Assembly (NCBI RefSeq): GCF_015265475.1
Contig: NZ_CP054493.1
Coordinates: forward strand, 2,232,001 to 2,296,000
Reading direction: 5' to 3'
DNA: 64,000 nucleotides
Source of the DNA: Candidatus Sulfurimonas marisnigri
GTDB taxonomy: Bacteria > Campylobacterota > Campylobacteria > Campylobacterales > Sulfurimonadaceae
The notes under the pieces are model-generated. The model saw nothing but the letters and a program-made list of their open reading frames with translations, had not been told where the DNA came from and ran no database searches. Both the position numbers and the translations under genes were made by a program. Shown here piece by piece: positions 1 to 36,129 of the stretch. Numbering within the stretch: position 1 is the first letter of the stretch; every line of letters begins with the position of its first letter.

Positions 1-346
1 AATCACCGGAGAGCATAATATTTCTACTCATACCTTTTGTAACATACAGGTCTGCTTTATAGCCGTAGTTTTTAGATAAAAAAGAACCGACTAAAATAAT
101 CAAAAAAGAGATGTGAAATAAAAACAGACCAAGCTTTTTTAACTTGTACATCTTTGCTCTAAAGATAGCTACTATTAAAAACAGAGCTAAAACACCTTGC
201 AAAGACCAGAACCATAAAGCATCATAGATATACTCTCTTGCCATACTATGTGAAGAGCTGTTTTCTATAAACGTTCCAGTAGCAATAGACAAAGCATAAA
301 TTGCCACAAAAACAAGTGCCACTTTCATAGAAAAGAGCTTATACAT
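1..346 (-). CDS. ResB-like cytochrome c biogenesis protein, 5' part
   Basis: Reading from an ATG at 346 gives 115 codons that run off the window edge without a stop. The peptide begins MYKLFSMKVALVFVAIYALS, then has TGTFIENS, a second hydrophobic segment and a third (FLFHISFLIILVGSFLSKNYG). That is the usual N-terminus of ResB/CcsB, with early transmembrane helices and the TFIE-type motif. ResB works with CcsA in system II to deliver and attach heme to apocytochromes outside the membrane. The start overlaps the last 8 bases of the upstream ccsA gene, so the two are translationally coupled. The gene is incomplete here, so fusion at its far end cannot be judged. Confidence 0.8.
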   Translation of the reverse strand, partial: MYKLFSMKVALVFVAIYALSIATGTFIENSSSHSMAREYIYDALWFWSLQGVLALFLIVAIFRAKMYKLKKLGLFLFHISFLIILVGSFLSKNYGYKADLYVTKGMSRNIMLSGD

Positions 347-1958
347 TTTTTCTATCCTTGTACGAAATAGCCACTAAACCAAAGAGGCTTAAAGCACCAA
401 TATAAGCATACCAAGGTACACGAGAACCACTGTCGCTTGCATATACATGTATAGCGTCAAAAAAGTAGTTTACACCAAAATATGTCATTAAAATAGTACT
501 AAATCCCAAAACCGACATTACAGAAAAGAGATAAACCCCGCTTCTCTTTGCAATAAATCTAAAATGGAGTATGAACATATAAACTAGTATAGAGATAAAT
601 GACCAAGCCTCTTTAGGGTCCCATGCCCAGACTCTTCCCCACGATTCATTTGCCCATACGCTTCCAAGCAGTGTACCGATTACCAAAAGAGAGAGACCAA
701 AAATCATAGATGCTTCATTTGTTTTATAAGACTCTTTGATTTGTTTAGCTACATGTAGAGAGTTTTTAGAAAATTTAAAAAGCACAAGAGTGATAATTCC
801 AAGCATAAAACTTAAGGCCAAAAATGCGTATGAGGCACTAATAATCGCTACATGTATAACAAGCCAGATAGATTGCAAACTTGAACTAAGTGTTGTTATT
901 CTAGGGTCAATCCAGCTTAGATGAGCCGCAAAAAGCATAACTCCAGCCATAAATGTAGTAACTCCAAGAGCAAAGTTTGATTTCTTAGAAAATATCAACC
1001 CAACAAGCAAGATTGCCCAAGCTATAAATATCATAGATTCATAAGCATTTGTCCATGGCGCGTGAGTGCTGATGTACCATCTTAGCCCAAGATTAAAACT
1101 ATACAGAGCAAAAAGTCCATATAAAATAAAATTAGCACTTTTTTCAATCAACATGTAGTTTTTTTCTCTAAGCACTTTTATAAAACTTAGAACTAATAAT
1201 AAGAGTCCAACTATTATATAAAATGGATAAATTTTCTCAAATATCAAAATCTTGTTATAAAAAAGTTCAGCGTCCACTTTTTCTTTAGTTAGTAAAACCT
1301 TAGAACCATAAAGCTTTTGAAACTCAGCAATCTTTTTAACCATCTCTTTGGCTAAATCAACATCGCCACTGATTAAAGCTTTTTTATTTAAAACCAAGAT
1401 TTTTTGAACGTCAAACTTTTGTGAACCACTAAATTTTTCTTCATATGTTTTTGGAGACAACCAACTGTTTTTTTCATCATTAGCCAATGGGAAGATTTTT
1501 AAATAGCCTTGAGTGTAAACATACTTAGCAACTTGAAGTTTTTCATCTATTTTTAACAGCTCTTTATCATAAGCTGTTCTTTGGCTTGCCTCTTTTTTGT
1601 TTGCCTCAGCAACTTCAAGCATCAAAGTATAAATACCATCTTTGTAAAAATCATTATAACTTTGCACTTTTGAATTGTATTCAAGCATAGGAACTTTTTT
1701 CCAAAACTCTGGAGCAAAAGTCATCCCTAAAACAACTTGATTATGATTAAGCCCAAACAACTCTTTTTTTCTTGTAAGTTTATTTAAAACATCCATATTT
1801 AGAGTGTCAAGCGGTTTCATACGGCCATCGCCGCTTTGAACACTCAAGCGGGAAAAAACCTCAGCATAACCTTTATCTAACTGGTATTTTAAAACATCAT
1901 CTTTTACGAAAGAAAAAAGCATGGTTGTAAAAAATAATAAAATTAAAAAAAATCGCAT
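339..1958 (-). CDS. ccsA: CcsA-type cytochrome c synthetase subunit
   Basis: Membrane heme-handling subunit of the system II cytochrome c synthetase. The 539 residues start with a hydrophobic leader, followed by a periplasmic region of about 220 residues (SGDGRMKPLDTLNMDVLNK) like the linker in fused CcsBA proteins. A bundle of transmembrane helices follows, holding the tryptophan-rich heme motif WGRVWAWDPKEAWS near residues 439-452. Campylobacterota normally make one fused CcsBA of about 900-1,100 residues; here the CcsA half is its own gene and ResB follows, overlapping by 8 bases. It starts directly after the stop of the preceding gene. Its place at the end of a cytochrome operon suggests a dedicated heme lyase. 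Confidence 0.9.
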   Translation of the reverse strand: MRFFLILLFFTTMLFSFVKDDVLKYQLDKGYAEVFSRLSVQSGDGRMKPLDTLNMDVLNKLTRKKELFGLNHNQVVLGMTFAPEFWKKVPMLEYNSKVQSYNDFYKDGIYTLMLEVAEANKKEASQRTAYDKELLKIDEKLQVAKYVYTQGYLKIFPLANDEKNSWLSPKTYEEKFSGSQKFDVQKILVLNKKALISGDVDLAKEMVKKIAEFQKLYGSKVLLTKEKVDAELFYNKILIFEKIYPFYIIVGLLLLVLSFIKVLREKNYMLIEKSANFILYGLFALYSFNLGLRWYISTHAPWTNAYESMIFIAWAILLVGLIFSKKSNFALGVTTFMAGVMLFAAHLSWIDPRITTLSSSLQSIWLVIHVAIISASYAFLALSFMLGIITLVLFKFSKNSLHVAKQIKESYKTNEASMIFGLSLLVIGTLLGSVWANESWGRVWAWDPKEAWSFISILVYMFILHFRFIAKRSGVYLFSVMSVLGFSTILMTYFGVNYFFDAIHVYASDSGSRVPWYAYIGALSLFGLVAISYKDRKNV

Positions 1959-2423
1959 CTATTTATCCTCTATAGGAGTATTAACCTCTTTTATTATCTT
2001 AATATGATTTATCTTCCAAGTGCCATCTTCCAATTGAATAAAGAAGTACCTCATATCATAGTCAGTTTTTACAGGTTCTGAGGAAACTTTTTTTCTAAAT
2101 ATATCTATATATCTGTATTTCCACTTCTCATGCGTGTCGAGTGTAGCAGTAATGCCATCTTGATTAAACTCACCAAACTTTATACCTAGAAGAAGGGCAT
2201 CCATAAATAGATAGTTGTCCTGATAAGACTCTAGCCAAATCCAAGTCTTAAAATATATCTCTTGCGTTAGATACTCTTGTAGATGGTCAAACTTCTTTTT
2301 TTTCGCTGCTAAAAGGACTCCGTGATTATACGAAACAACAAGCTCTCTAAAAGGCTTGTTATCTACTTCACTAGCAAATATAGTGAGTGAAAAAAAAATA
2401 TAAAATATAAAATATTTAGTCAT
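1959..2423 (-). CDS. small secreted protein, possible IMS/NTF2-like domain
   Basis: A 154-residue protein with a short N-terminal signal peptide (MTKYFIFYIFFSLTIFAS). The remainder is soluble, with a helical first half and a beta-rich second half (ATLDTHEKWKYRYIDI, then DYDMRYFFIQLEDGTWKINH). That pattern of paired strands ending in a 'dGtWKI' strand resembles ARC6-like IMS or NTF2-like folds, but this is a weak resemblance and no function can be assigned. It contains no heme motif. It sits between the large cytochrome (12-base gap) and ccsA (no gap), so it is probably a periplasmic accessory of the electron-transfer system or of heme attachment. Confidence 0.6.
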   Translation of the reverse strand: MTKYFIFYIFFSLTIFASEVDNKPFRELVVSYNHGVLLAAKKKKFDHLQEYLTQEIYFKTWIWLESYQDNYLFMDALLLGIKFGEFNQDGITATLDTHEKWKYRYIDIFRKKVSSEPVKTDYDMRYFFIQLEDGTWKINHIKIIKEVNTPIEDK

Positions 2424-2435
2424 GTCTCTTAAATC

Positions 2436-4580
2436 TTACCAACCGGTTGGCTTAGTCTCTGCTGTACCAGTTTGGTCACCAGACCTATGCTTATCACTAC
2501 AGCTAGGTCCATTTGCTAATATTTGATTTGCATTCCAAGTTGCACTACCTTTTGCTATTCTAGTAAAATAAATCTTATTTCCATTGTAATTATATGGTGC
2601 TGGAAAAGTAGTCATGCCCAACAATCTTGACATAGGAGAACCATGAGGAATTGCGATATGACATCTTACACATTCCAAATTCATCTCATTTCTTTCAGTG
2701 TGATTAGGTCCACCTTGTTCTATAAAGTGACAATTTCGACAAAAGACACCTGGGTTGTTTCCACTATTATTACTACTACCAGATTTAAATAGGGTTCCTC
2801 CTGAATCAGCTGGCCAATAATTATCAGTATTTTTACCTTTTAGCATAAACTTATAACTAGAACCATGAGGACCTTTTGGGTCAGTCCCTGTCTCATCAGC
2901 TGCTCCATGACAATCACTACAGTACATAGTCTGAGTACCTTCACTTTTCCATGGATCTCTCATCTCACTATCTTGTAAAGCTTTTGGAGAATTACTTCCA
3001 GTTCTACTACCGAGTGCAACATTTACAGGGTGACCTGAGCGGTTATTGACATTAAACTCCCACGCAACATCTGTAAAATTTACATTTGCATCACTAAATG
3101 TCACATATGCTGAGTGTGCAGGACTATTTGTCATCGTATCTCCATTCGCTCCATCAGCACCTATCCCCCAATATGAGTGACACTTAAAACACACCTCATA
3201 CTCATAAGTAGCAGTTTCGAGTGTTGTAAATGTTGTTGGCTGCTCCCATCTAGCTGTTGATGTAAAGGATGTTGGTCTAACTCCGCTAGCACCTTTTAAC
3301 GGACCTTCATTTGCTCCATTTACTATAAGGTTTGTGCCAGCACCGTTAGTTGGGTACAAAGAACCTGGTAGTGTACGGCTAATCTCTTTTACCTGATGCT
3401 GATTATGACAGTCCATGCACTCTACATGTTGAGAACTAGTCCAATCTATACCACTTGTTGGACCTTGATCATTTGTTACACCCGCACCATAAATATAATC
3501 TAGATTTGTGTGCTTTATATTTCCATTGCTATTTCTCAATGTGAATCCATGACCGTATTGCTCACTCATAGCAGTCTCTATGTCTTTTCCACCTGATGCA
3601 CCACCTGAACCGTGACATGGAGCTGTGCTTACTGTATCAGATGCTCCTTGGTAACATGTTTGCTCCTGCACTCGTCTTGTTAAATACTGGTCGTCACCTG
3701 CATTATGAGGAGTATGACAATTTACACATTTCATGTCAGATACCTTTGTACTAGCTCCATTTGAAAATTTAGTATTCACAGTTGAGTTAGTATAGGTAGC
3801 AGTTTTAACATCATGCGTGCTTCCTACAAAATTATCTTTTACATGACATGACATACATGTAGTTGCTATATTTTGTCCATGTGTCGCACCTGTATCTACT
3901 CGTAAAAACTTTCCATTCTCTTTGTGTGGGTCATGACATGAGATACACTCTACAAACTTTTGACCAGGATATCCTAGATATTCACGAAGCACTATTGGTG
4001 AATCTGGGGTAGCCTTTAGTTCATTGCCTCTAGATGCAGATTGTGAATGTGGAGCACCAGCTGACGGCATTGTCATAGTTTCCCCATATGATACTGCTAC
4101 TGGATGATGCTTACCTAAATCAGTACCTATAAAAGCACTACTACCACTCAACATTGTCCCATCACCAGCAACACCACCCATAGCAATATCACTACCATTA
4201 CCACTACCTGGAGCATTTGTAATAGCGCCAATAGCTACAGTTCCATCATGACAACTAAGGCATTGTCTAGATATTGTTCCTGGTTCTCCATTTGCACTTC
4301 CTAATACTGATGGCATTGGATACCCTGTTCTTCTCAAATAATCACTATCATACATAGTATAAGCACTAGCAGGCATACTTCTGTTCCATAGTGGGGCTCC
4401 AACAGGTTCTGCTCCATGTGGGGTATGACAAAAAACACAAATTTCCGTTTCTGACGTAGCTTTTACTGTTCCTCCAGTGTTACTAACGGAAAGATTATGT
4501 TTTGTGTTTACAATTCCAGCAAAAAGAGAGACTGATGCAAAAAATGATATTCCTATAACAAATAATTTAATAAACCTCAT
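2436..4580 (-). CDS. large multiheme cytochrome c with two abnormal heme motifs
   Basis: A 714-residue exported cytochrome (signal peptide about 1-21) with ten CXXCH motifs at residues 48, 107, 212, 242, 285, 388, 464, 554, 614 and 637. Two further sites are abnormal: C309-X12-C322-H323, and CSDKH at 694-698, where lysine replaces the second cysteine. Residues 27-246 (KHN, CHTPH, CLSCHDG, HHPVAVSY, CHDPH, CMSCH) match the spacing of the neighbouring 270-residue tetraheme protein, so the N-terminus is a paralogous four-heme module followed by a longer heme-bearing extension. The gene ends a tight operon with two NHL propellers, a PPIase and an outer-membrane barrel, and is followed by ccsA/resB. 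A role as periplasmic or surface electron-conduit cytochrome is inferred. Confidence 0.9.
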   Translation of the reverse strand: MRFIKLFVIGISFFASVSLFAGIVNTKHNLSVSNTGGTVKATSETEICVFCHTPHGAEPVGAPLWNRSMPASAYTMYDSDYLRRTGYPMPSVLGSANGEPGTISRQCLSCHDGTVAIGAITNAPGSGNGSDIAMGGVAGDGTMLSGSSAFIGTDLGKHHPVAVSYGETMTMPSAGAPHSQSASRGNELKATPDSPIVLREYLGYPGQKFVECISCHDPHKENGKFLRVDTGATHGQNIATTCMSCHVKDNFVGSTHDVKTATYTNSTVNTKFSNGASTKVSDMKCVNCHTPHNAGDDQYLTRRVQEQTCYQGASDTVSTAPCHGSGGASGGKDIETAMSEQYGHGFTLRNSNGNIKHTNLDYIYGAGVTNDQGPTSGIDWTSSQHVECMDCHNQHQVKEISRTLPGSLYPTNGAGTNLIVNGANEGPLKGASGVRPTSFTSTARWEQPTTFTTLETATYEYEVCFKCHSYWGIGADGANGDTMTNSPAHSAYVTFSDANVNFTDVAWEFNVNNRSGHPVNVALGSRTGSNSPKALQDSEMRDPWKSEGTQTMYCSDCHGAADETGTDPKGPHGSSYKFMLKGKNTDNYWPADSGGTLFKSGSSNNSGNNPGVFCRNCHFIEQGGPNHTERNEMNLECVRCHIAIPHGSPMSRLLGMTTFPAPYNYNGNKIYFTRIAKGSATWNANQILANGPSCSDKHRSGDQTGTAETKPTGW

Positions 4581-4592
4581 TTCAACCCCTCT

Positions 4593-5591
4593 CTATTTAG
4601 ATATATTCAGGCGTTTAAACATCTGAACTCTTTTATTATTTGTATCGCTAATGTATATTTTATCATTTTCTGATATAGATATATTAACAGGCAAAGAAAA
4701 CTCACCAGCTCTATTGCCATATCTACCTAAAACAAGCAGTAATTCACCTTTTTGATTAAAAATCTGTATAGCATTAAAGAGTGTATCACTCACATAAATA
4801 TTTTCATCACTATCAACTGCTATACCTCTTGGATTTACAAAACTACCTATCTTTTCCCCTACATTACCAAATGAACTTATGTAGTTTCCATCTTTATCAA
4901 GTATTTGCACACGATGATTTAAAGAATCTGTAACATATAGTTTGCCATTTTTACCAATTGCAATATATGTTGGTCTATTAAATTCTCCAGCCTTTTTTCC
5001 AAAATTACCTATAGAAAAAAGGAACTTGCCGTTAGTATTCATTACATGTATTTGGCTAGATACTGCGTCTACAATATATAAGTTTTTATTCTCTGGGTTT
5101 ATGGCAACACCTACTGGTCTCTTAATCCTAACATTTTGTATAATATGCTTAAAATCTCCATCTTCTTTAAAAACAAATATTTGTGCACGAACAGAATCAG
5201 AAACATAAATATTTCCTTCATCATCAACACAAACACCAATAGGGTATAAAAATGGCTGTTTACTTGATCCCTTTATATCTATGATTTCATCATTCTCTGT
5301 GTCAAATACATAAACAGACTTTAACGAAATATCTGTTACATAGATTTTATTTTTTACAATTTTTAAACCAAAAGGTGCTAAGAGTTTAAAATTATCTTCT
5401 CCAAAAACAAAATCACTAAGCTTAGAAAAAAAACCTTTTTTTACACCTGCTTGAGCTGCTGTAGAAAATGAATCTATGTACTCTATACGAGCAGGGTCAG
5501 GCTCTTGAGGCCAATATAATCTCTCTTGTGTCCCTGCATATAAACTCATACCAATAAAAAAAACAAACATTAACTTTATAAAATTCCTCAC
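4593..5591 (-). CDS. periplasmic NHL-repeat beta-propeller protein
   Basis: A 332-residue protein with signal peptide MRNFIKLMFVFFIGMSLYAG and six repeats of the type 'P.GIAVD..GNIYVSDT.N.RIQVF...G'. Examples are GVCVDDEGNIYVSDS near 120 and GIAVDSDENIYVSDT near 255. This gives a six-bladed NHL propeller, a scaffold for protein contacts rather than a known enzyme. It is closely similar in layout to the lipoprotein encoded at 8336-9475, so the two are probably duplicates within the operon. The gene lies 12 bases from both the barrel gene before it and the large cytochrome gene after it. I infer a scaffold or assembly role around the cytochrome. Confidence 0.85.
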   Translation of the reverse strand: MRNFIKLMFVFFIGMSLYAGTQERLYWPQEPDPARIEYIDSFSTAAQAGVKKGFFSKLSDFVFGEDNFKLLAPFGLKIVKNKIYVTDISLKSVYVFDTENDEIIDIKGSSKQPFLYPIGVCVDDEGNIYVSDSVRAQIFVFKEDGDFKHIIQNVRIKRPVGVAINPENKNLYIVDAVSSQIHVMNTNGKFLFSIGNFGKKAGEFNRPTYIAIGKNGKLYVTDSLNHRVQILDKDGNYISSFGNVGEKIGSFVNPRGIAVDSDENIYVSDTLFNAIQIFNQKGELLLVLGRYGNRAGEFSLPVNISISENDKIYISDTNNKRVQMFKRLNISK

Positions 5592-5603
5592 CCCTATCTC
5601 CTT

Positions 5604-7397
5604 TTAAAAATTTCTTACCAATTTTGCTCGCATAATTCCTCTAGATGTATATGTATCCTTAATAGAGCCGACTGTCATTGAATACATATAATCATAAGAT
5701 AATGTAAAAATTGTTTTACCAGCTACATACTTCATAGATGCACCACCTCCATAGGACACTTGCTTAGCAGTAAAATTATTAAGAGCTCTAGCATTTGATT
5801 GAATAGACAACTTCCTTCCTACGTATTGAAAGTTCAGAGATGAATTCGCACTAGAAATATCACTTGACACATCTTCAGTAATCAAACTATCATATGTATA
5901 ACCTGCCGATGCTGATATGGTGCTTCTTAAACCTATCCTTCTATTATACGACAAATTTGAATTATTACCATAAGATACAACAGTAGTGCCTTGCTTTAGT
6001 TGATAAGATGCAACAAATTTATTTGTAAGATATCCCAAGTAAGTTTCTAAATTTACGCTTGTGCGCCATGTATCACTGCTATCTTCTTGTGATTGCATAA
6101 CACGATTATATGAAGTAACAATTGTACCATTAGACCTTAGTCTTGGCAGGTTTTCTCTTAATGAAGCTCTAAGACTAAGAGTTAGTGTTTTATCTAAGCT
6201 ATCTTCTTCGGCACTAGTTTGATTTTCATCAAAACGTTCTGTTGTGTTACTCACTACATTCCCAACAAGTGAACTAGTGGTAATAATATTTCTTTGGTTA
6301 AATAAATTTATAGTTTTGCTGTATGTAGTTATTAGATTGAACATTGCTCTTTTATTCATATAAATGTCGTCTTGTGTAGTAAAATAACTTGCATTTTGAC
6401 CAACTAAAAGCCCTGGCAATATATTATAGCTAAACATCTGATTTAAATTTATCGTGCTAATTGAATTAGACCCTTCTGTAGGATTAGAAATATTATTATA
6501 ATCATATGGGGAATAATCTGTATTAACGATATCAAGGCCAATGGAGCCTAGTATATCTTTATTTGGTTTCCAGTTTAATACAATATTTCCATAGGCCACT
6601 TTAGTTTCAAGATTGCTCACATTATTGTCAATAGTAGTACTTTGATACAATAAAGAAGTATCCAGCTTAAAACTTTGACTTGGATAATAACTATAACTAA
6701 AATCAACAACATTATCTTCGCTATCTATTGCATTAGAATTTACATTATTTGTATCTACTTTTCGAATGTTATTTAGAAATCCTAATTTAAAACTTTGTCC
6801 AGTGCCTTTATAGTTTAAATTTACGCCATATTTAGCATCAGTTTCTTTTTCAGAAGTATTGCTTGAGTTTTTCTTGTTTTTACTTTCATTAAGATAATAG
6901 TTTAATCCAAATTTACCCAGGTCTACAGAACCACCAAAATTATAATTTTCTATAGTTCTTAAATAGTATATAGAAGTACTATTAGCATCTACTCCTATTT
7001 CTATTGAAGGTTCAGTAAACTTACTGTAGCCTATACTAAATGGGACTTTCGTACTTTTTAAAAATGAAAAATCACCACCATAATTATTACTTTGTGAGCT
7101 ATTATCATTTTTAATATTTGACATTGAATCATTTTGCTTTAAGTCTGAATAGTCTAAAGATCCATATACCTTATATTGTAAAATTTTTGGATGATAAACA
7201 TTTCCATCGTACAATAACTTATACTTTTGTGTAAATGTTTCTTCACTGTTCTTATAGTCTTGGGTTTCACTTTGATCATCTTCATAGTTAAACTCAATAT
7301 TACCACTTAAACCCTTGTCTGGATGATTTTTTGCCAGAACAACAGGTGAGCAAATTAACACAAGGCAAACAAAGGTTAAACAAAAATTCTTCATCAC
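5604..7397 (-). CDS. outer-membrane beta-barrel, candidate electron-conduit porin
   Basis: A 597-residue protein with a signal peptide ending near VVLA (residue 22). It is rich in Ser, Asn, Tyr and Thr, with alternating hydrophobic strands throughout, and ends in phenylalanine (AKLVRNF), the usual C-terminal signal for insertion by the BAM machinery. No plug or TonB box is visible. It also lacks the N-terminal CXXC of MtrB, so it is not a plain MtrB homologue. It lies inside an operon with a multiheme cytochrome, a PPIase and two NHL propellers. By analogy with porin-cytochrome complexes I infer that it encloses a cytochrome across the outer membrane. Ordinary outer-membrane roles remain possible. 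Confidence 0.75.
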   Translation of the reverse strand: MMKNFCLTFVCLVLICSPVVLAKNHPDKGLSGNIEFNYEDDQSETQDYKNSEETFTQKYKLLYDGNVYHPKILQYKVYGSLDYSDLKQNDSMSNIKNDNSSQSNNYGGDFSFLKSTKVPFSIGYSKFTEPSIEIGVDANSTSIYYLRTIENYNFGGSVDLGKFGLNYYLNESKNKKNSSNTSEKETDAKYGVNLNYKGTGQSFKLGFLNNIRKVDTNNVNSNAIDSEDNVVDFSYSYYPSQSFKLDTSLLYQSTTIDNNVSNLETKVAYGNIVLNWKPNKDILGSIGLDIVNTDYSPYDYNNISNPTEGSNSISTINLNQMFSYNILPGLLVGQNASYFTTQDDIYMNKRAMFNLITTYSKTINLFNQRNIITTSSLVGNVVSNTTERFDENQTSAEEDSLDKTLTLSLRASLRENLPRLRSNGTIVTSYNRVMQSQEDSSDTWRTSVNLETYLGYLTNKFVASYQLKQGTTVVSYGNNSNLSYNRRIGLRSTISASAGYTYDSLITEDVSSDISSANSSLNFQYVGRKLSIQSNARALNNFTAKQVSYGGGASMKYVAGKTIFTLSYDYMYSMTVGSIKDTYTSRGIMRAKLVRNF

Positions 7398-7406
7398 TTC
7401 TTGAAT

Positions 7407-8339
7407 TTACTTTATTATCTTTGCTTTTTTCTTTAACTTCTCAAGAAGCTCGTCTCGTTTAATTTTCTCTTCTTTAGTTTGTAAGTCTTTTTTTAAATTA
7501 TCTTTTATCTTGCTGAATGGAAGCTGCTTCGCTTCACCTTTTTCAATGACTTCTACTATATAACAACCCAGACCTCGTTCCATAACCTCACTAAGTTCCC
7601 CAGGCTTCATTTTAAACACTTCTTCTTCTATACTAGCAGTTATCTGTCCCTTATGCATAAAGCCCAAGTTACCACCCTTAACACGACTCCTGTCACTAGA
7701 GTATTTTTCTGCCACTTCCTCAAATGATGTGCCACTTTTGATTTTTGCTAATGCTTCATCTGCTTTTTTCTTTGCCTTTTTATTCCCTATAGGGTCCATT
7801 GGATTGTTTTTTATATATATCATTTTGATATTTATTCTCTCTGGCATTTTAAACTTGTGCTTGTTGTTTTTATAATATTCTTTAAGCTCTTTTTCTGTTG
7901 GTACGCTTTTTATGTTTTTTTCATAAACTTGAGCTAAAACTAACTCTTTTTTAAATGCATGCATATATAAATCGAAGCTAGTACGTTTCTTCTGAAAATA
8001 AATATCTAGTTGAGCTCTTGAATTATTTGCAGCCTTAAGAAGTTCCTTTTTTCTAGTATCTAAATCCTCTTGCTTTGGTTTAAAACCTTGTGAAAGTCCA
8101 TAAGTATAAAAAATATTTATATTTATAAGTTCATCTAAGGCTTTTTTTATCAACTCATCTGTTTTTGCTTTTTTTAAATTTGTATGAAAAGAAATTCTAG
8201 GCAATAGTTTTTCAACAGTATAATTAAGTTCTTCTTGAATTATTGCTGTTCCGTTTACTACTGCAACTGTATTTTCTGGAAGTACTGTCGCATGAGAAAA
8301 AGACAAAACAATAAAAAGTGAAACTAATATCTTTTTCAT
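7407..8339 (-). CDS. periplasmic parvulin-type peptidyl-prolyl isomerase
   Basis: A 310-residue SurA/PpiC-like chaperone-isomerase. A signal peptide (about 1-18) is followed by a helical N-terminal chaperone region (30-150). One parvulin domain lies at about 160-265, with EEVAEKYSSDRSRVKGGNLG and PGELSEVMERGLGCYIVEVI. A basic tail follows. The start overlaps the stop of the upstream lipoprotein gene by 4 bases and the barrel gene follows after 9 bases. In this setting it probably folds the beta-barrel or the proline-containing multiheme cytochromes. From memory, PPIase genes recur next to extracellular cytochrome genes in Geobacter; I could not check that here. Confidence 0.9.
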   Translation of the reverse strand: MKKILVSLFIVLSFSHATVLPENTVAVVNGTAIIQEELNYTVEKLLPRISFHTNLKKAKTDELIKKALDELININIFYTYGLSQGFKPKQEDLDTRKKELLKAANNSRAQLDIYFQKKRTSFDLYMHAFKKELVLAQVYEKNIKSVPTEKELKEYYKNNKHKFKMPERINIKMIYIKNNPMDPIGNKKAKKKADEALAKIKSGTSFEEVAEKYSSDRSRVKGGNLGFMHKGQITASIEEEVFKMKPGELSEVMERGLGCYIVEVIEKGEAKQLPFSKIKDNLKKDLQTKEEKIKRDELLEKLKKKAKIIK

Positions 8340-9475
8340 TTGTCACCATCCTTTTTTGTCTGTTTTTCTTTTTCTTTTCTTTCTCTTTCTAAAACAGCTT
8401 TAGGTGTATAATCTACATACTCTTTGTACTTTAATGGATTGTTTTTTTGCCATTTTTCACTTAAGTATTGAAACGACTGTACTCTTCCTGAAAAGCCATC
8501 AGCTATAATTAGTTTATCATTTTCATCAATATACATCCCCGAAATAAGTCTAAATGTTGCTGGTTCTACGAATCCTGCATGACCAAAATAAGTCATTATC
8601 TCACCTTCTTGATTAAAAACTTGAACATTATTAAATGCACTATCAGCTACATAAATATGCCCTTCACTATCAATACCTACCCCTTTTGGTCTTGCGAAGT
8701 CACCAGGTCTATCACCAACCTTACCAATACTTTTTATAAACTTTCCATCTTTATCAAAAATCTGTACTCTAAAATTTTGTGTGTCTGTTACTACAAAATT
8801 ATTGTTTCTTCTATCTATGGCAATATTTGTAGGGAAGTTAAATTCTCCATGAGCATTACCTCTTTTACCAACTTTATACAAAAGCTTTTTAGTAGCCAAA
8901 TCATAAGCTTTTACATCATGTGCTTTTGTATCTACAACATATAATCTATGAAGCTCCTTATCAATAGCTATCCCTGTTGGTGCTGTAAAGTCTAAGCGAC
9001 TTCCAAGAGTAAAAACTAAAGTTCCTTCTTGATATCCTGTAATTTTTTTTGCTAATATATCACTTATATACATTATGCCATCTTTATCAAAAGCTATAGA
9101 AACAGGACTAACAAAACTAGCTCCCTGGCCAGCGCCCAAGTATGCTACTTTTTTTGTTTTTTCATCAATTATAAAAACAACTCTCGTTCCTGTGTCTACT
9201 ACATATATTTTTCCATTTTTAAAAGCTACACCATAAGGTTTTACTATAAGAGGGTTTTGGACTTTTTTACTAGTATCACCAGTTATACTGTCTAATAAGT
9301 TAGTTTCTTCCTCTTCAACATTTTCACCTCTATATGTGTCTAGGTAAACAATACGTGGCTTATCAGGATATGGAGGAAACGCTAGCATTTCTTGTTTTAT
9401 CTCTTTTACTTTTGTTGAGCATCCTATAAACATAAGTTGCATAAAAATAAAAAGCACAGCCAATATCAGTTTCAT
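8336..9475 (-). CDS. NHL-repeat beta-propeller lipoprotein
   Basis: A 379-residue lipoprotein whose signal ends in the lipobox FIGC (cysteine at residue 19). Six NHL-type repeats span about 75-345, for example GVAFKNGKIYVVDTGTR, NIAIDRRNNNFVVTDTQNFR and GVGIDSEGHIYVADSAFN. A charged tail rich in Lys and Glu closes the protein. It heads the long operon: 72 bases separate it from the YceI-like gene upstream, while the PPIase gene overlaps it by 4 bases. It is a paralogue of the soluble NHL protein at 4593-5591. Anchored to a membrane, it probably scaffolds the cytochrome-barrel assembly; no enzymatic residues are evident. Confidence 0.85.
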   Translation of the reverse strand: MKLILAVLFIFMQLMFIGCSTKVKEIKQEMLAFPPYPDKPRIVYLDTYRGENVEEEETNLLDSITGDTSKKVQNPLIVKPYGVAFKNGKIYVVDTGTRVVFIIDEKTKKVAYLGAGQGASFVSPVSIAFDKDGIMYISDILAKKITGYQEGTLVFTLGSRLDFTAPTGIAIDKELHRLYVVDTKAHDVKAYDLATKKLLYKVGKRGNAHGEFNFPTNIAIDRRNNNFVVTDTQNFRVQIFDKDGKFIKSIGKVGDRPGDFARPKGVGIDSEGHIYVADSAFNNVQVFNQEGEIMTYFGHAGFVEPATFRLISGMYIDENDKLIIADGFSGRVQSFQYLSEKWQKNNPLKYKEYVDYTPKAVLERERKEKEKQTKKDGDK

Positions 9476-9547
9476 ATAACAATCCTTAAATTAAATAATT
9501 ATTTTTATTGTAGCAGATGAATTTAAACAATCTACTGTAAATATAGT

Positions 9548-10135
9548 TTAGTAGCAAATTTCATCTATTTTTATTATTAAACTAGCATGAACATCATCCC
9601 ATGTTACTCCTAAATGTTCACCACTACATGCATTGTCTAGTGAGTTCAATGCATCACTTGCATTAAAATCTCTCATATAGATATGCCACCTTGCATGAAA
9701 TTCTCCTTTTTTTATAAAGTAAGATGTTTTAAGCTCTTTTTTAACGCCATTAAAGTCTAACTCAATAGTAATATAACCACTTTTTTTATAAATTTCCTTA
9801 TCTGCTTCAACGGCTATAATTTTAGCTCTAATATCTTTTTTTATTATCTTTTTAAAAAAATATTCCTTCAGATTAGGTATTATCAGATCTTCTTTTGAAC
9901 CAATGTCTACTATATTTATAATTACAGATGAGCCAACAAGTAGTTGCTTCAAAGTTGGTGCTTCATTTTTGGCAGGAGAGTACTTGATATCGTTAAAGTG
10001 GCTACCCATAGCAACTTTAAATTCTGTCTTATATCCTCTAAAGAGAACTTCTATATTGTTTTTTTGTGTAAACTTACAGCTATATGCCTGAGCTAAAACA
10101 CTAAAAAAAACAAGTGCTACAATACTTTTTTTCAT
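9548..10135 (-). CDS. YceI-like periplasmic protein
   Basis: A 195-residue protein with signal peptide MKKSIVALVFFSVLAQAYS. The rest alternates beta strands in YceI fashion (EVLFRGYKTEFKVAMGSHFN; SGYITIELDFNGVKKELK), with three cysteines (20, 170 and 194 approximately). YceI-family proteins fold as lipocalin-like barrels, often binding isoprenoid lipids. It has gaps on both sides and a TATAAT-like box upstream, and the upstream tetraheme gene ends in a strong terminator, so it is probably transcribed separately. Its role next to the cytochromes is unknown; a quinone- or lipid-binding function is only a guess. Confidence 0.6.
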   Translation of the reverse strand: MKKSIVALVFFSVLAQAYSCKFTQKNNIEVLFRGYKTEFKVAMGSHFNDIKYSPAKNEAPTLKQLLVGSSVIINIVDIGSKEDLIIPNLKEYFFKKIIKKDIRAKIIAVEADKEIYKKSGYITIELDFNGVKKELKTSYFIKKGEFHARWHIYMRDFNASDALNSLDNACSGEHLGVTWDDVHASLIIKIDEICY

Positions 10136-10207
10136 CTAAAATTCCTTCTGATTATTATGCGTATAATGATTATTATATAGTGTTTATGTAAATGGGAGAA
10201 AAAGGGC

Positions 10208-10242
10208 AAAAAAAAAGGCAGATGCTAAAAGCACCTGCCTTT
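10208..10242 (-). terminator. rho-independent terminator of the tetraheme cytochrome gene
   Basis: On the minus strand a 9-bp GC-rich stem (GGCAGGTGC paired with GCATCTGCC, one G-U pair) with a 5-base loop is followed directly by nine U residues. It lies 20 bases beyond the tetraheme stop codon. It is the clearest terminator in the window and separates that gene from the YceI-like gene. Confidence 0.9.
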
Positions 10243-10262
10243 GCGAACAAACAAGAGTATAC

Positions 10263-11075
10263 TTATTTGTCGTGACAACCAATACAAAGCTGAGAACCTT
10301 TGTTAGTATGACGAAGATAACTAACTTCACCTGTACCTTGTGCTGAACCTGTTGCATTATGTGGATCATGACATGAAACACACTCAACTTGATCATTAGA
10401 AGAACCTCTTAGTAGATCCGACACTTTAGGAGTTGCAGGAGCACCTGGTACTAGCCATGCTTGATCTCCTGCTGGTAAAGTAGTTGCAGTTGTTCTTAAA
10501 GAAGCTCTTCCTGGAACATATGTAATAGAAATTGGATGATCATTTGATAAGTCAGCTACACCATCAGCACCACCAGCACCTGCATCATATGAACCACCAG
10601 CACCAATATTACCGCCATTCAATGAGCCAATACCAGTCATACTCATATTACCATCTTTTAGACCGCCCATACCAGAACCTGGAGCATTTAATATAGAGTT
10701 AACAGCAGAAATACCATCATGACATGATAAACATACTAAAGATGGATTCGCTGGTACAGTACCATTATTATCACTTCCACCAATCGTTTTACCATACATC
10801 TTGTAACCAGACACACCAGCCGTAGGCTTGTTTAGTGAATCTTTATTCCAAAGTGGCGCACCTGAAAAAGCTGTGTTAGCCGCGTGAGGCGTGTGACAAT
10901 ATACACAAATTTCACCATTATCACCAGTAGTTGCACCACCAGTTCTTACGCTAATGTTGTGTGGACTACCAGTAGCAGTAATCGATTCACCACCATAAGT
11001 AGCACCTGAAGTACCCGCGAAAGCCATTGTTGTTGTTAACAGTGAAGCTAATAACAATTTTAATTTAGTATTCAT
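10263..11075 (-). CDS. exported tetraheme cytochrome c, candidate filament subunit
   Basis: A 270-residue protein with a signal peptide ending AFA (residue 20) and four CXXCH motifs at 57, 115, 232 and 264. Candidate distal histidines are H39 (SPHN), H64 (CHTPH), H180 (NDHP), H239 (CHDPH) and H256. Long Gly/Ala/Ser stretches separate the motifs, especially residues 130-175. The same module is repeated at the N-terminus of the 714-residue cytochrome. The gene has its own consensus sigma-70 promoter, a GGGAGAG ribosome site and a strong terminator, which suggests high monocistronic expression. Size and heme number are like the tetraheme cytochromes that polymerise into extracellular nanowires (OmcE type), but homology to those is not proven. 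A periplasmic shuttle is the alternative. Confidence 0.9.
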   Translation of the reverse strand: MNTKLKLLLASLLTTTMAFAGTSGATYGGESITATGSPHNISVRTGGATTGDNGEICVYCHTPHAANTAFSGAPLWNKDSLNKPTAGVSGYKMYGKTIGGSDNNGTVPANPSLVCLSCHDGISAVNSILNAPGSGMGGLKDGNMSMTGIGSLNGGNIGAGGSYDAGAGGADGVADLSNDHPISITYVPGRASLRTTATTLPAGDQAWLVPGAPATPKVSDLLRGSSNDQVECVSCHDPHNATGSAQGTGEVSYLRHTNKGSQLCIGCHDK

Positions 11076-11130
11076 AATATCTCTCCCTTTGCATATAGTA
11101 AATTACTTATATGTTTTGTTGATATACAAT

Positions 11131-11159
11131 ATTATATCTATTAATCTTAATAATTGCAA
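11131..11159 (-). promoter_or_regulatory. sigma-70 promoter of the tetraheme cytochrome gene
   Basis: On the minus strand TTGCAA (11159-11154) and TATAAT (11136-11131) are separated by exactly 17 bases. They lie about 55-84 bases before the start codon. A good ribosome site (AAAGGGAGAG) precedes the ATG. The near-consensus -35 is notable because Campylobacterota promoters usually lack one. Confidence 0.75.
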
Positions 11160-11200
11160 CAAGCATCAACTAAGAATTTTATTTTATCAAAAATTAAGTT

Positions 11201-11227
11201 ACAGAAAGTAACACAGTTGCTTTCTGT
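11201..11227 (-). terminator. hairpin directly after the octaheme cytochrome gene
   Basis: An 8-bp perfect inverted repeat (ACAGAAAG / CTTTCTGT) with an 11-base loop abuts the stop codon of the octaheme gene. A U-rich stretch follows about 7 bases later on the minus strand. It is a weak terminator or a 3'-end stabiliser that separates this transcript from the tetraheme promoter. Confidence 0.5.
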
Positions 11228-12253
11228 TTACTTTTTATGGCATCTTTGACATACGTTAAAAGGATGGGAACCTTCCATTCTAAGTAAATATATCCCTGTG
11301 GATCCATGAGGGTTATGACAGCTTGTACAAACGAATTCCCTTCCTGGCCGTGCTGGGTCTGCTCTATCTTTTGTTGGGTGAGCTCCTGCATTTCTTGAAA
11401 AAACAAATCCTGAAACTATATGGTTGCCCGGAATCGCTTTTTCCGTATGACAAGTTGTGCACAAGTCCCAAATATGCTTACGAAGAAAAAACTCATTGTC
11501 AGAGCCGTGTGGATTATGACATCTTTTACATCTTCCATCATTAACTGGGCCATGTCCATATCTGCTTGCTTGCCACCCCTCTACAGTATCATGACAATAT
11601 GCACAAGTTTTTGCGATTGGATCAGGTGCTAAATATTTCGTAAGTCCTTCATCGTCTATGTTGTATTCAGCACCTTTTCCATTATGACAAATCGTACACA
11701 ACCAGTTAGCAGCAGGAGCATGCGTACTTTTGGTATTTAACTTACCGCTGTGACACTTATAACATGTAGTTTCTGAGACATCATCAAATGGTTCATCTTC
11801 AGGAGGTATATTATTTGTCATATCATGACAAGATTTACACTTCTCTTCCTCTTCTTCTGAATGAAAATAATTTTTATCATACTGTTCAGCATCATATACA
11901 TCTACACCAGGGAGTACATCATTGTAAAAGTAAGACTCCCTTTTATCACTACTAAGAAGTTTACCATCTTTATATGCTTCAATAAAAATTGTATTTACTG
12001 CTGGATGAAGCTCAACGGTTTTACAATACGTATCTTTTTCTGATGTTACATCTATTGTTGTATTTATATCGCCTTGTCTAATAACTATCTTATCTACACT
12101 TTTATGATTTGCTTCAATTACAAACGTGCTGTCTTTTCCTTCGTATCTTGTATAATCAAAAGGTTTCATGATTTCAATAAAAGATGAAGCTTCTTCAGCT
12201 TTGCCGCTTAAAGCGACAAGAAGAAGAATAAAGAAAAGATATATTGTTTTCAA
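11228..12253 (-). CDS. octaheme cytochrome c with N-terminal beta domain
   Basis: A 341-residue exported protein (signal about 1-19). Residues 20-120 are heme-free and strand-rich (SFIEIMKPFDYTRYEGKDST, VNTIFIEAYKDGKLLSSDKR), like an immunoglobulin-type carbohydrate- or protein-binding domain. Eight CXXCH motifs follow at 139, 164, 186, 217, 242, 265, 309 and 335; several are of the doubled 'CHNPHGS' class. It follows the 12-site cytochrome by 8 bases and is followed by a hairpin, so it ends that operon. A periplasmic or surface electron carrier whose N-terminal domain binds a partner is a reasonable inference. It does not look like a known octaheme nitrite, hydroxylamine or tetrathionate reductase. 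Confidence 0.85.
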   Translation of the reverse strand: MKTIYLFFILLLVALSGKAEEASSFIEIMKPFDYTRYEGKDSTFVIEANHKSVDKIVIRQGDINTTIDVTSEKDTYCKTVELHPAVNTIFIEAYKDGKLLSSDKRESYFYNDVLPGVDVYDAEQYDKNYFHSEEEEEKCKSCHDMTNNIPPEDEPFDDVSETTCYKCHSGKLNTKSTHAPAANWLCTICHNGKGAEYNIDDEGLTKYLAPDPIAKTCAYCHDTVEGWQASRYGHGPVNDGRCKRCHNPHGSDNEFFLRKHIWDLCTTCHTEKAIPGNHIVSGFVFSRNAGAHPTKDRADPARPGREFVCTSCHNPHGSTGIYLLRMEGSHPFNVCQRCHKK

Positions 12254-12261
12254 GACCAGAT

Positions 12262-13503
12262 CTATTTCAGGTTGACTTTTGGAGTCTCTCTATCGTAGTG
12301 GCGACGAGCATGACAAGCTGGCGCACATGAACCGCCATTTTCAGTTTCAATATAACGAATTGGAAAATTTATTCTTCCAAACTGTGTTTTCTTTCTTAAG
12401 TGGTGTGGGTACTCTTTTGTTCCATGAAAATCATGACAAGCACGACAAGAACGACCTTTTATTTTGTTAACATGCACAAAGTGTATATTTTTATCACCAT
12501 TTCTAAAGTTAGTTGCTTCAATTGTAAACTCTGCTTTAATTTTATCTGGTTCATGACACTGAAAACAGATATAATTTTTTTCGTCAAAACTTTCATAAAA
12601 AGTTCTAGGAAATGGTTTTTTTAACATTCTTAAGTTGTTTGAGCCATGAGGATTGTGACATGCAGCACAATCACCCCAAAGTATTGGACCATGCCAATCT
12701 GGATTATCTTCAAGATGTTTTGCAATATTTTGAAGCTTGTACCCTGTCTCATCAGTTTTTAAAGACTCATTGTGACATGTTAGACATAACTCTTTTGCTG
12801 TATCTTTAATAATAAACTTTGGATGCTCAGAACCATGAGGGTCGTGGCACTCAAGACATTTTCTTGGTCTATCAATTGCTCCATGCTTATCTGTAACTTC
12901 TGCTATCCAAACTTTTTTATCTACATGACACATAAGACAGATATCTTTTTTACGGTCAGCTTTTAGTTGGTAAAGATTATCTTCAGTGTGAGGATCATGA
13001 CAGTTTGTACACTGATCTTTTACTGGTGGGTGAATATATGTAGTATTGTGTAAAAACTTATCTTTTGCCTCGTGACACGATGTACAAAGCTCATTGATAC
13101 TAGCTCTAACCAAAAGTTTTGCGTTTGGTGATTCATGTGGGTTATGACATGCTGTACAAGCACCTGCTCCTACTGGTCCATGAATAAAATTCTTAGTATC
13201 TTTTGGTTCATGGCACTGGTAGCACAATTCTGGAGTGTCAAGCTTTAAATCTTCTCCATCTTCAGGGTTAGCTCCCTCATGACAAACAGTACAGTCTCCC
13301 CACTCATATGGAGGGTGAACAACTTTTTCATCTGCTCTTAGTGCAGTTCCGTAAAACTTCTCTTTTTCAGTTAAAGCGAGAGTTTCAGTTTCAGCTTGAG
13401 CACCAGCCATATCTGCACCAAAATCTTCAGCTGCCATGATACTTGTACATGTTAGCAATAAAGAGATAATTATATTTGCTATGTAGAAACGATTATATTT
13501 CAT
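12262..13503 (-). CDS. dodecaheme-type cytochrome c
   Basis: A 413-residue exported cytochrome with a signal peptide of about 24 residues and an acidic linker. It has eleven CXXCH motifs (71, 94, 116, 140, 165, 189, 216, 240, 279, 313, 353) and a twelfth site with one extra residue, CAPACH at 393-398. Many sites are doubled CXXCH pairs with CHNPHES, CHDPHTE and CHDPHGS, typical of periplasmic electron-storage cytochromes. It is 8 bases before the octaheme gene and 17 bases after the monoheme gene, forming one operon. The family is used as wires rather than enzymes, so a periplasm-spanning carrier is inferred. Confidence 0.85.
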   Translation of the reverse strand: MKYNRFYIANIIISLLLTCTSIMAAEDFGADMAGAQAETETLALTEKEKFYGTALRADEKVVHPPYEWGDCTVCHEGANPEDGEDLKLDTPELCYQCHEPKDTKNFIHGPVGAGACTACHNPHESPNAKLLVRASINELCTSCHEAKDKFLHNTTYIHPPVKDQCTNCHDPHTEDNLYQLKADRKKDICLMCHVDKKVWIAEVTDKHGAIDRPRKCLECHDPHGSEHPKFIIKDTAKELCLTCHNESLKTDETGYKLQNIAKHLEDNPDWHGPILWGDCAACHNPHGSNNLRMLKKPFPRTFYESFDEKNYICFQCHEPDKIKAEFTIEATNFRNGDKNIHFVHVNKIKGRSCRACHDFHGTKEYPHHLRKKTQFGRINFPIRYIETENGGSCAPACHARRHYDRETPKVNLK

Positions 13504-13520
13504 TTTTTACCTTTTCTTAT

Positions 13521-13886
13521 TTATCTTTGTCTTGGTCTATCAGCAGCTGAAACCAGATATGTTGCGAGAGCCTTCATTTTGTCATTTGAAAGAGTCTTAA
13601 TTTTTGCCAATTGCGGGTTCATAACAGGTGCGCGGTCTGGATAAACTATAGGGGTTCCCAATGAACTAAGATAAGACACTAAAGAACTCTCTTTACCTGT
13701 ATATGCAGTCGCTATTGTCATTATTGATGGACCAATTAGCTCTTTGTCTAATTTATGGCAAAGGGTACAACCTTTTGATTCGAAGATTGCTTTACCCTTT
13801 GCTTTGATAACATCATCTGAATCTTCTGCTATAACATTAGAGAAAAACAATATGCTAAAAGATAAACCCAATATAAATTTTTTCAT
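13521..13886 (-). CDS. monoheme class I cytochrome c
   Basis: A 121-residue periplasmic c-type cytochrome. The signal peptide ends about residue 20; CTLCH at 40-44 binds the heme, and the methionine of PVMNPQL (about residue 90) is the likely sixth ligand. The C-terminal helix ALATYLVSAA is typical of small class I cytochromes. It is the first gene of the cytochrome operon that continues to the 12- and 8-heme genes. It is a good candidate to pass electrons between the bc1 complex and the multiheme proteins. Confidence 0.85.
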   Translation of the reverse strand: MKKFILGLSFSILFFSNVIAEDSDDVIKAKGKAIFESKGCTLCHKLDKELIGPSIMTIATAYTGKESSLVSYLSSLGTPIVYPDRAPVMNPQLAKIKTLSNDKMKALATYLVSAADRPRQR

Positions 13887-14486: not shown

Positions 14487-15902
14487 TTAGCAGATGACTA
14501 CACTCTTAATTTCTGTCATCTCTTCTATAGCGAACTTAGGACCTTCACGCCCTACTCCACTTAGCTTCACACCACCATAAGGCTGTATATCAAAACGAAG
14601 AGTTGGCATGTCATTTATAACTATTCCACCAGCATCAAGCTCAGATATAGCACGTTGAGTCAGCTTCAAGTCATTTGTGAAAACAGAAAACTGAAGTCCG
14701 TATGGAGAGTTGTTCATTCGAGGAATTGCATCATCAAATGAGCCAACTTTTATTAGTGAAACAATAGGGGCAAATACCTCTTCACAAACTATTGCCATGT
14801 CATCTCTTACATCAACCATAACACAAGGGTAAAACATTCTTCCCTCATGTCTTGGAGTAAGAAGAGGAGTTGCTCCCTCCTCTATAGCACTCTCTACCCA
14901 ACCCATAGCACGAATAGCCGCATCATCATCTATAAGCGGTCCCATAAAAGTATCATCTTCATAAGGAGAGCCAACTACCAATTTTTTAGTCTCTTCTGCC
15001 ATATTTTTTGCGAATTCATCATAAATATCAGAATTAACGTATATTCTCTGCAGAGATATGCAAACTTGTCCAGAGTTTACAAAAGCACCTAAAGCACAAC
15101 GCTGAGCAGCCAAATCTAAATCAGCACTCTTATCTATGTAAGTAGCTGCATTTCCGCCAAGCTCTAAAGATACTTTTTTAATGCCGGCATTTTTAGTGAT
15201 AATGCGTCCAACAGGAACTGAACCAGTGAAGCTGATAACACGTGGAATATTACTAGTAATTAAAGCACTTCCAACTTCTGCATCGCCGTAGACCACACTA
15301 AGAGCATCTTTTATGGCGAACTCACTCTCTATAAAGAGTTTTGCAAATTTATATGCCGTTAATGGCGCTTCTGGTGTTGGCTTTAAGACAACACAGTTTC
15401 CTGCAACCAAAGCAGGAGCTAGCTTATGTGCTACAAGATTTAATGGAAAATTAAATGGAGTGATTGCCACAACTACACCAGCTGGCTCTCTAGTGAAAAA
15501 TGCAGTTGTTTTTTTACCACTAGGCATTGCATCAGTGTTAATTGTTTCACCATGCATTGTTCGCATAGTCTCAGCTGACAAAGTTACTGTTTCAATACAT
15601 CTATCTACCTCAACTCTTGCAAAAGATATTGGCTTACCAACTTCATCGGTTATAGTTTTTGCGATATCCTCTTTTTGCTCTTTAAGTTTTTTTACCACAT
15701 CCAAAAGCCAGTTGCATCTTTGAGAAAGAGTTGATTGTTTAGCATACTTTGTTGCGTCCTGCGCAATTTGTAATGCTTTTAAAGCATCTTTCTCATCACA
15801 AATAGGAGCATACGAGACAACTTCTCCACTAAATGGACTTCTTCTTTCACTGCAATTATCTGTTATAGCTTCAACTGAGCCAAAAAATATTTTTGCATTC
15901 AT
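14487..15902 (-). CDS. NAD(P)-dependent aldehyde dehydrogenase
   Basis: A 471-residue class I aldehyde dehydrogenase, soluble and full length. It has the nucleotide-loop motif FTGSVPVG (about 225-232), the glutamate motif LELGGN (about 247-252) and the catalytic cysteine in NSGQVCIS (about 276-283). The C-terminal half keeps EEVFAP and the 'GGIVINDMPTLRFDIQPYGG' stretch. The sequence is of the lactaldehyde/succinate-semialdehyde/glyceraldehyde-3-phosphate type, but the substrate cannot be told. A TATAAT-like sequence lies about 50 bases upstream. Its neighbours are unrelated, so it is probably a single-gene transcript. Confidence 0.85.
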   Translation of the reverse strand: MNAKIFFGSVEAITDNCSERRSPFSGEVVSYAPICDEKDALKALQIAQDATKYAKQSTLSQRCNWLLDVVKKLKEQKEDIAKTITDEVGKPISFARVEVDRCIETVTLSAETMRTMHGETINTDAMPSGKKTTAFFTREPAGVVVAITPFNFPLNLVAHKLAPALVAGNCVVLKPTPEAPLTAYKFAKLFIESEFAIKDALSVVYGDAEVGSALITSNIPRVISFTGSVPVGRIITKNAGIKKVSLELGGNAATYIDKSADLDLAAQRCALGAFVNSGQVCISLQRIYVNSDIYDEFAKNMAEETKKLVVGSPYEDDTFMGPLIDDDAAIRAMGWVESAIEEGATPLLTPRHEGRMFYPCVMVDVRDDMAIVCEEVFAPIVSLIKVGSFDDAIPRMNNSPYGLQFSVFTNDLKLTQRAISELDAGGIVINDMPTLRFDIQPYGGVKLSGVGREGPKFAIEEMTEIKSVVIC

Positions 15903-16033
15903 GTAATTCCTTGCGTAAAAAGTTTTTATAATTATAATATGAAAAATTATACCATTAAAAAAGTAGCAAACTTATTTTATTTTAGGCTTTTAAATTTTAT
16001 GTTATTATATGGGTAGATAAACAGGAGGATGTC

Positions 16034-16258
16034 ATGGAAGTTACTCGCTATATATTTCAGTCACCTTATTCTAGCCAAGTACAAGTTGGAAGAGCTGATA
16101 CTGTTTCTGTTGGCAGTAAAAATACAGCAGATAGCAGTTCGGGACTTGATGGTGCGATAAACCAAGCGCTTAGCAATGCAGAAAACTTCGAAGCTACTCA
16201 AGTTAAAGAGCTTGAACTTACAATTAGTAGCGATTCTATTTTAGATATTTACGCCTAA
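16034..16258 (+). CDS. small hypothetical protein
   Basis: A 74-residue polar protein (MEVTRYIFQSPYSSQVQVGR...) with no signal peptide, membrane segment or cysteine. The middle is rich in Ser, Gly, Asp and Asn and probably disordered; the ends look more ordered. An excellent ribosome site (AGGAGG) sits 5 bases before the ATG and a TATTAT box about 30 bases upstream, so it is very likely expressed. The thioredoxin-like gene follows after 12 bases. The function is not recognised. Confidence 0.7.
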   Translation: MEVTRYIFQSPYSSQVQVGRADTVSVGSKNTADSSSGLDGAINQALSNAENFEATQVKELELTISSDSILDIYA

Positions 16259-34889: not shown

Positions 34890-34901
34890 TTGTTTCGCTC
34901 C

Positions 34902-36116: not shown

Positions 36117-36129
36117 TTATGTCCTTTCC

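Follow-up and report, generated by a model that had tools for sequence, protein, structure and literature searches.

The window analyzed here comprises bases 2,232,001-2,296,000 (64 kb) of the one-contig, 2.49-Mb genome of Candidatus Sulfurimonas marisnigri. Near its start lies a 13.5-kb gene cluster (339-13886), encoded on the minus strand throughout and made up of 11 co-directional genes followed by those for CcsA and the start of ResB, which are listed in Table 1 in the order of transcription. The genes which an earlier note on this DNA had named are borne out, but the note omitted the two small genes at 1959-2423 and 9548-10135. Pfam agrees for each of its two NHL propellers, parvulin and CcsA. 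ResB is also present as claimed, but the window holds only a part of it (2-346, the first 115 of 444 aa). The host had further been described as otherwise a bc1/cbb3 respirer, and both the bc1 complex (33942-36654) and CcoP of a cbb3 oxidase (62079-63008) were found in the window. A gene for a subtilase lipoprotein of 1,473 aa, located just beyond the window edge, is common to this genome (G000) and one other, G088, and the 195-aa gene is found at its place in these two genomes only.

Table 1. Genes of the cluster in order of transcription, with positions in the window.
Gene product	Position	Strand	Basis
Monoheme class I cytochrome c, 121 aa, His/Met ligands	13521..13886	-	CTLCH at 40; Met89 invariant in 13 relatives
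12-heme cytochrome, 413 aa, MtrA/DmsE-like doubled-CXXCH family	12262..13503	-	11 CXXCH and an invariant CX3CH
Octaheme cytochrome, 341 aa, heme-free N-terminal region of ~130 aa	11228..12253	-	8 CXXCH
Tetraheme cytochrome, 270 aa, UetA/OmcE clade	10263..11075	-	4 CXXCH; 7tfs_A E 2.8e-16; tree
Exported protein without family assignment, 195 aa	9548..10135	-	No Pfam/NCBIfam family
NHL propeller lipoprotein, 379 aa, UetH-like	8336..9475	-	Lipobox Cys19; Pfam
SurA/PrsA-type parvulin peptidyl-prolyl isomerase (PPIase), 310 aa, UetB-like	7407..8339	-	Pfam
Outer-membrane beta-barrel (predicted), 597 aa, UetC-like	5604..7397	-	28 predicted strands, plug-less, C-terminal Phe
NHL propeller, 332 aa, UetI-like	4593..5591	-	Pfam
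11-12-heme cytochrome, 714 aa, UetJ-like	2436..4580	-	OmcE-like tetraheme N-terminal domain and C-terminal heme chain with C-X12-CH
Conserved exported protein, 154 aa	1959..2423	-	Adjoins UetJ in relatives
CcsA half of split System II cytochrome c synthase, extra copy	339..1958	-	Pfam
ResB half, start only	1..346	-	Gene runs on beyond the window (L007:11012-12346)

Five of the proteins are c-type cytochromes, in agreement with the 1, 12, 8, 4 and 10-12 sites on one strand reported in the earlier note. The CXXCH motif occurs once in the 121-aa protein and 11, 8, 4 and 10 times in the proteins of 413, 341, 270 and 714 aa, respectively, i.e., 34 times in the cluster compared to a mean of 0.2 (maximum 3) in shuffled versions of the same proteins. 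The other 50 kb of the window holds only 5 such motifs in long ORFs. Conserved extra motifs complete the count. In the 413-aa protein, C393-X3-CH is invariant in 13/13 relatives, which gives 12 heme sites in all. The 714-aa protein carries a C-X12-CH at 309-323 that 18/18 relatives share and that is invariant, as CXnCH, across 27 sequences from several phyla. Relatives of this protein also have a C-terminal CX4CH, in place of which this genome has only the reduced form CSDKH. The monoheme cytochrome is His/Met ligated, and His/Met cytochromes c are of the high-potential type.

CcsA and ResB had earlier been counted as components of a conduit, but they are heme-attachment machinery. In eight genomes sampled, there is one CcsBA copy without the cluster, two with it, and three in this genome and G088, as would be expected of an additional heme-attachment system that moves together with the cluster. 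The additional split ResB/CcsA is common to the latter two genomes, both of which are single contigs. An extra CcsBA beside cytochromes with unusual heme motifs resembles Wolinella CcsA1/NrfI, which we take to be dedicated System II synthases, and the extra CcsA/ResB may attach heme at the odd CXnCH sites.

Judged by gene content and by profile comparison with loci of the Uet order, the closest described system is probably not the porin-cytochrome complexes of Geobacter, which had served the earlier note as a model, but Uet, a proposed conduit that was described for electron uptake. It is known from Ca. Tenderia and, in a paper on Gallionellaceae, from Gallionella (PMC10734462). In Ca. Tenderia electrophaga it consists of the undecaheme UetJ (11-12 motifs), the tetraheme UetA, the trihemes UetD/E/G, the PPIase UetB, the barrel UetC and the NHL proteins UetH/I (PMC10734462). 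We found several proteobacterial loci with the order tetraheme-PPIase-barrel-triheme(s)-soluble protein of ~300 aa-triheme-NHL-NHL-J, which is the lettered Uet order, and the 270-aa tetraheme family has profile matches to the A-position genes in loci of this order. The barrel is homologous to gammaproteobacterial barrels in the C position (hhalign 98.9%, E 2e-17, 512 columns; reversed controls 0.05 and 0.08, shuffled controls 0.75 or more). Tetraheme A, PPIase B, barrel C, NHL H/I and the 11-12-heme J are common to Uet and the cluster. However, the trihemes D/E/G and the TPR protein F of Uet are absent from the locus and its flank, and the cluster instead includes the monoheme, 12-heme and 8-heme cytochromes, the 154-aa protein and full-length CcsBA, in a Campylobacterota host. 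Since the core matches Uet but the trihemes and the TPR protein are absent, the cluster is, by its gene content, a Campylobacterota variant of the Uet kind rather than Uet proper, joined to a module of the OmcE type. It had also been thought that the combination is little described in such genomes, but related loci occur in many phyla: among the best 80 matches (more exist) of a GTDB profile scan with the 714-aa family, UetJ-like genes are found in Campylobacterota, Aquificota, Nitrospirota, Gamma-, Beta- and Alphaproteobacteria, Magnetococcales, Bacteroidota, Chlorobiota and Desulfo-lineages. In the mainly open-access literature, we found no publication that joins Sulfurimonas with Uet, OmcE or "undecaheme".

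The tetraheme cytochrome and the UetJ-like protein also share a domain with a filament-forming cytochrome. The chain 7tfs_A, which we take to be the OmcE filament, matches the tetraheme (E 2.8e-16) and gives an even stronger match to the 714-aa protein over residues 18-247 (E 4.2e-26), and 9yuq_N, present in 16 copies in its entry, matches likewise. The four non-CXXCH (distal) histidines of OmcE align and are all kept. In a 151-row tree, OmcE, its orthologue and 9yuq group with the tetraheme (A) proteins, and the UetJ N-terminal domains form the sister clade; one state change explains 148 labelled rows, and the joining branch has an SH-aLRT of ~92 by a quick method. OmcE is reported to polymerise via a histidine from the neighbouring subunit (PMC9473688). 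This cross-subunit histidine and the kinship of the two domains with OmcE make a filament seeded on UetJ plausible.

The multiheme pair upstream of the tetraheme gene matches 6r2q_A (413 aa, E 2.9e-16; 341 aa, E 1.5e-10), presumably the MtrA chain of the Mtr complex. The 413-aa protein also scores with the DmsE decaheme model, below the cut-off, and has two paralogues elsewhere that lack a barrel, as would be expected if the cytochromes formed a DmsE-like periplasmic chain to a soluble acceptor, unconnected with the cell surface. Nevertheless, no terminal reductase gene is seen in or adjoining the cluster, and the barrel and the OmcE-like cytochrome are present, so that such a chain seems very improbable. 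We also find the neighbours of the tetraheme gene in another setting. The closest gene to G. sulfurreducens OmcE in the searched set is a 65%-identical orthologue in a Desulfuromonadia genome (G387/L144), where it is accompanied by ResB, CcsA, a 10-heme protein like the 413-aa cytochrome, an 8-heme protein like the 341-aa cytochrome and an NHL lipoprotein. These shared neighbours indicate that the window joins a periplasmic module of the OmcE-locus type to a Uet core. With the OmcE locus of Geobacter-type bacteria, the cluster thus shares an OmcE-clade tetraheme with the four distal histidines, and its CcsA/ResB, multiheme pair and NHL protein have homologues in L144; it differs in the added barrel, PPIase and UetJ, and its filament is putative. 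An Aquificaceae MAG (L081) has nearly the whole set, both Uet core and periplasmic module, with no PPIase seen.

Neither Pfam nor NCBIfam has a family that matches the barrel. Its AlphaFold2 model (14 sequences) has 28 strands straight after the signal peptide, no plug domain and a mean pLDDT of 86, and its last residue is Phe, which agrees with the outer-membrane-type barrel with C-terminal Phe read in the earlier note. Searched with Foldseek, the whole PDB yields MtrB as the top match (E 2.1e-9), and VIA-align also places MtrB first (Z 18.3), followed by TonB-dependent receptors (17.5), at an rmsd of 10 Å. Because these Z values are close and the rmsd is large, the likeness to MtrB supports the size and type of the modelled barrel rather than common descent. 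Membership in the MtrB/PioB family was considered and rejected, as PF11854 finds nothing in the genome. The cluster resembles MtrCAB, MtoAB and PioAB in having a large barrel and an MtrA-like cytochrome, but it has 28 predicted strands versus 26, a barrel outside the MtrB_PioB family and no OmcA/MtrC-family decaheme. It had been reasoned earlier that a barrel unable to hold a cytochrome would argue against a conduit; the strand number, though an indirect measure and set beside MtrB and TonB scores that lie close together, does not point to such a barrel. An open 28-strand pore would need filling, and UetJ, the multiheme neighbour that the barrel retains in relatives, would be the natural candidate. 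The AlphaFold2 model of the 714-aa cytochrome itself (mean pLDDT 50) was too poor and was set aside. Alternatively, barrel, PPIase and NHL proteins might be an export or assembly line for OmcE-like filaments, with no electron flow through the barrel. A large barrel beside a dedicated PPIase, a surface cytochrome and propellers would suit secretion, and the OmcE-like gene of G387/L144 keeps its NHL gene, with no neighbour that matched the barrel, PPIase or UetJ profiles. The persistence of the 11-12-heme UetJ next to the barrel in relatives and the ranking of MtrB as top fold match argue against this, and we regard an export line as improbable.

The divergence between this genome and G088 is unevenly distributed over the cluster. 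The monoheme, 12-heme and 8-heme cytochromes, the 154-aa protein and CcsA are 85-95% identical, whereas identity falls to 30% in the barrel, 41% in the PPIase, 59-63% in the NHL proteins, 60% in the tetraheme and 69% in UetJ. In their evolution, the NHL and PPIase proteins thus go with the barrel. The proposed outer-membrane parts change fast and the proposed periplasmic parts slowly, which supports the topology. Allelic replacement of the barrel segment between the two genomes was rejected, as 7/8 gene trees keep them as sisters, and rapid divergence of this segment is likelier.

Barrel homologues occur patchily, in 22 of the 228 family genomes and, within these, in 16 of the genus (135 of the genomes examined). 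Their surroundings preserve the order NHL-PPIase-barrel-NHL-714 aa, and most sufficiently long contigs have monoheme-413-341-270 upstream and 154 aa-CcsBA downstream as well. A scan of viral contigs with the NHL protein gave no match. The cluster is real, conserved, patchily distributed and of the conduit type; its function is read from homology and fold. Among 12 single-contig genus genomes, only this one and G088 have both the cluster and nifH above the cut-off. Among named isolates, nif genes are reported from four, S. marisnigri and S. baltica included (PMC12029903, PMC12403661).

What the computation establishes is the gene content, the homologies, the heme motifs and the fold of the barrel. 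On this basis, the locus probably encodes an electron conduit across the outer membrane, with a Uet-type core and a periplasmic module, to an outside acceptor. The surface electron-transfer system of the earlier note remains the best-supported reading, owing to the Uet core, the OmcE-related tetraheme and the MtrB-like barrel, but its Geobacter model, the rarity of the combination and the role given to CcsA/ResB did not hold. We infer the location of the parts, their complex formation, polymerisation, direction and acceptor as follows. Electrons from sulfur compounds would pass via quinone and bc1 to the His/Met monoheme, and from there to the 8- and 12-heme cytochromes, which would act as periplasmic wires. 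These would feed the UetJ-like cytochrome held in the plug-less 28-strand barrel, and UetJ would pass electrons to surface-exposed OmcE-like tetraheme subunits, which may form a filament that starts from the OmcE-like N-terminal domain of UetJ. From these subunits, electrons would reach the outside acceptor, for which Mn(IV) oxide is the likeliest choice. The PPIase may aid folding of the barrel, and the NHL propellers may keep the parts together.

Entry from the cytochrome c pool is most likely, since a NapC/NirT/CymA-family quinol dehydrogenase was not found in the genome, nor was MtrB/PioB, bc1 is present, and a His/Met monoheme comes first. The potential of the cytochrome c pool would suit Mn(IV) oxide and not Fe(III) oxides. 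With sulfide or thiosulfate, Ca. Sulfurimonas marisnigri can use MnO2 for growth but not Fe(III) oxides, and its electron pathway was left open by the authors (PMC6589767); S. baltica uses MnO2, whereas S. gotlandica does not (PMC9789136). The same conduit could also run in reverse, with a partner cell, a metal surface or Fe(II)/FeS minerals as the electron source and the cbb3 oxidase or nitrate reduction as the sink. The namesake Uet genes come from a cathode-oxidising organism and from iron oxidisers (PMC10734462; PMC5371394), and the high-potential c-type link and the cbb3 oxidase in the window would agree with uptake. However, the known outside partner of Ca. S. marisnigri and S. baltica is the acceptor MnO2, and sulfur compounds already serve as electron source; uptake is therefore unlikely, though less so than the export line considered above.

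PMC6589767 and PMC9122950 assign no outer-membrane pathway to the coupling of sulfide oxidation to solid MnO2 in Sulfurimonas, a coupling held to matter in the redoxclines of the Black Sea and the Baltic. The cluster is a strong candidate for the route of Sulfurimonas electrons to solid manganese oxide, and the locus offers a named gene set and a possible explanation of the failed growth on Fe(III) oxides. For a Sulfurimonas MAG near cable bacteria, an incomplete set of Mtr-like genes has been reported, together with the possibility of "an undetected porin" (PMC11748539), which could be a barrel of the kind found here. The locus also links Uet conduits and OmcE filaments, which have been described separately, through a domain and a periplasmic module that they have in common, and this bears on how the filaments are fed with electrons. 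More tentatively, conduit and nanowire might be one machine, with the N-terminal domain of the barrel-anchored UetJ as the base for a UetA/OmcE-like tetraheme polymer, and in Sulfurimonas the wire would then be the Mn(IV)-oxide reductase, fed by the cytochrome c pool and not by quinol. If so, Uet clusters would be the missing outer-membrane feed of OmcE-type filaments.

The cytochrome c synthase CcsBA/ResB is present in three copies in both the window's genome and the sister genome G088, and in two copies in the other genomes with the cluster, versus one in the sampled genomes without it. When window 4593-11075 is compared with the sister genome, its barrel, PPIase, NHL and tetraheme proteins reach an identity of only 30-63%, and the flanking cytochromes one of 85-95%. 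Two paralogues of the 413-aa, 12-heme cytochrome are encoded elsewhere in the window's genome, outside the cluster, and no adjoining barrel gene was recognised at either locus.

OmcZ is processed by the protease OzpA. A lipoprotein with a subtilase domain, five Big_5 domains and Lcl_C, which is reminiscent of OzpA, is encoded downstream of the cluster, a position it holds only in the window's genome and G088.

Among relatives, two Sulfurimonas genomes carry duplicated UetJ-like genes within their cluster region. A spermine-synthase/MFS fusion gene, missing from the window's own cluster, follows CcsBA in several of the other clusters of Sulfurimonas.

Genes in and around the cluster, elsewhere in the window's genome and in relatives (L007 is a stretch of the window's genome reaching past the window start)
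Feature	Location	Remarks
CcsBA/ResB, window's genome	L007:2787-6071; L007:11012-12346; window 339-1958	
413-aa cytochrome paralogue	L038:7395-8540	11 hemes, 55% identity, stand-alone
413-aa cytochrome paralogue	L039:7627-8712	10 hemes, 46% identity, stand-alone
Small doubled-CXXCH cytochrome	L041:6096-6803	4 hemes, kin of OmcE-like tetraheme
Small doubled-CXXCH cytochrome	L040:6338-6961	3 hemes, kin of OmcE-like tetraheme
Small doubled-CXXCH cytochrome	L040:7051-7791	4 hemes
Subtilase lipoprotein, 1,473 aa	L007:6115-10536 (-)	~1.5 kb outside window start
Duplicated UetJ-like genes	L052:2697-4775 and 8400-10463	
Duplicated UetJ-like genes	L061:11952-14006 and 14610-16114	
Spermine-synthase/MFS fusion	L044:1465-3825; L048:14773-17142; L053:10316-12682	
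NapC/NirT cytochrome	L058:18345-18980	G065

In G065, from one related genus, a gene for a NapC/NirT quinol-dehydrogenase cytochrome comes after the cluster, which suggests that electrons enter the system there by another route than in the window's genome.
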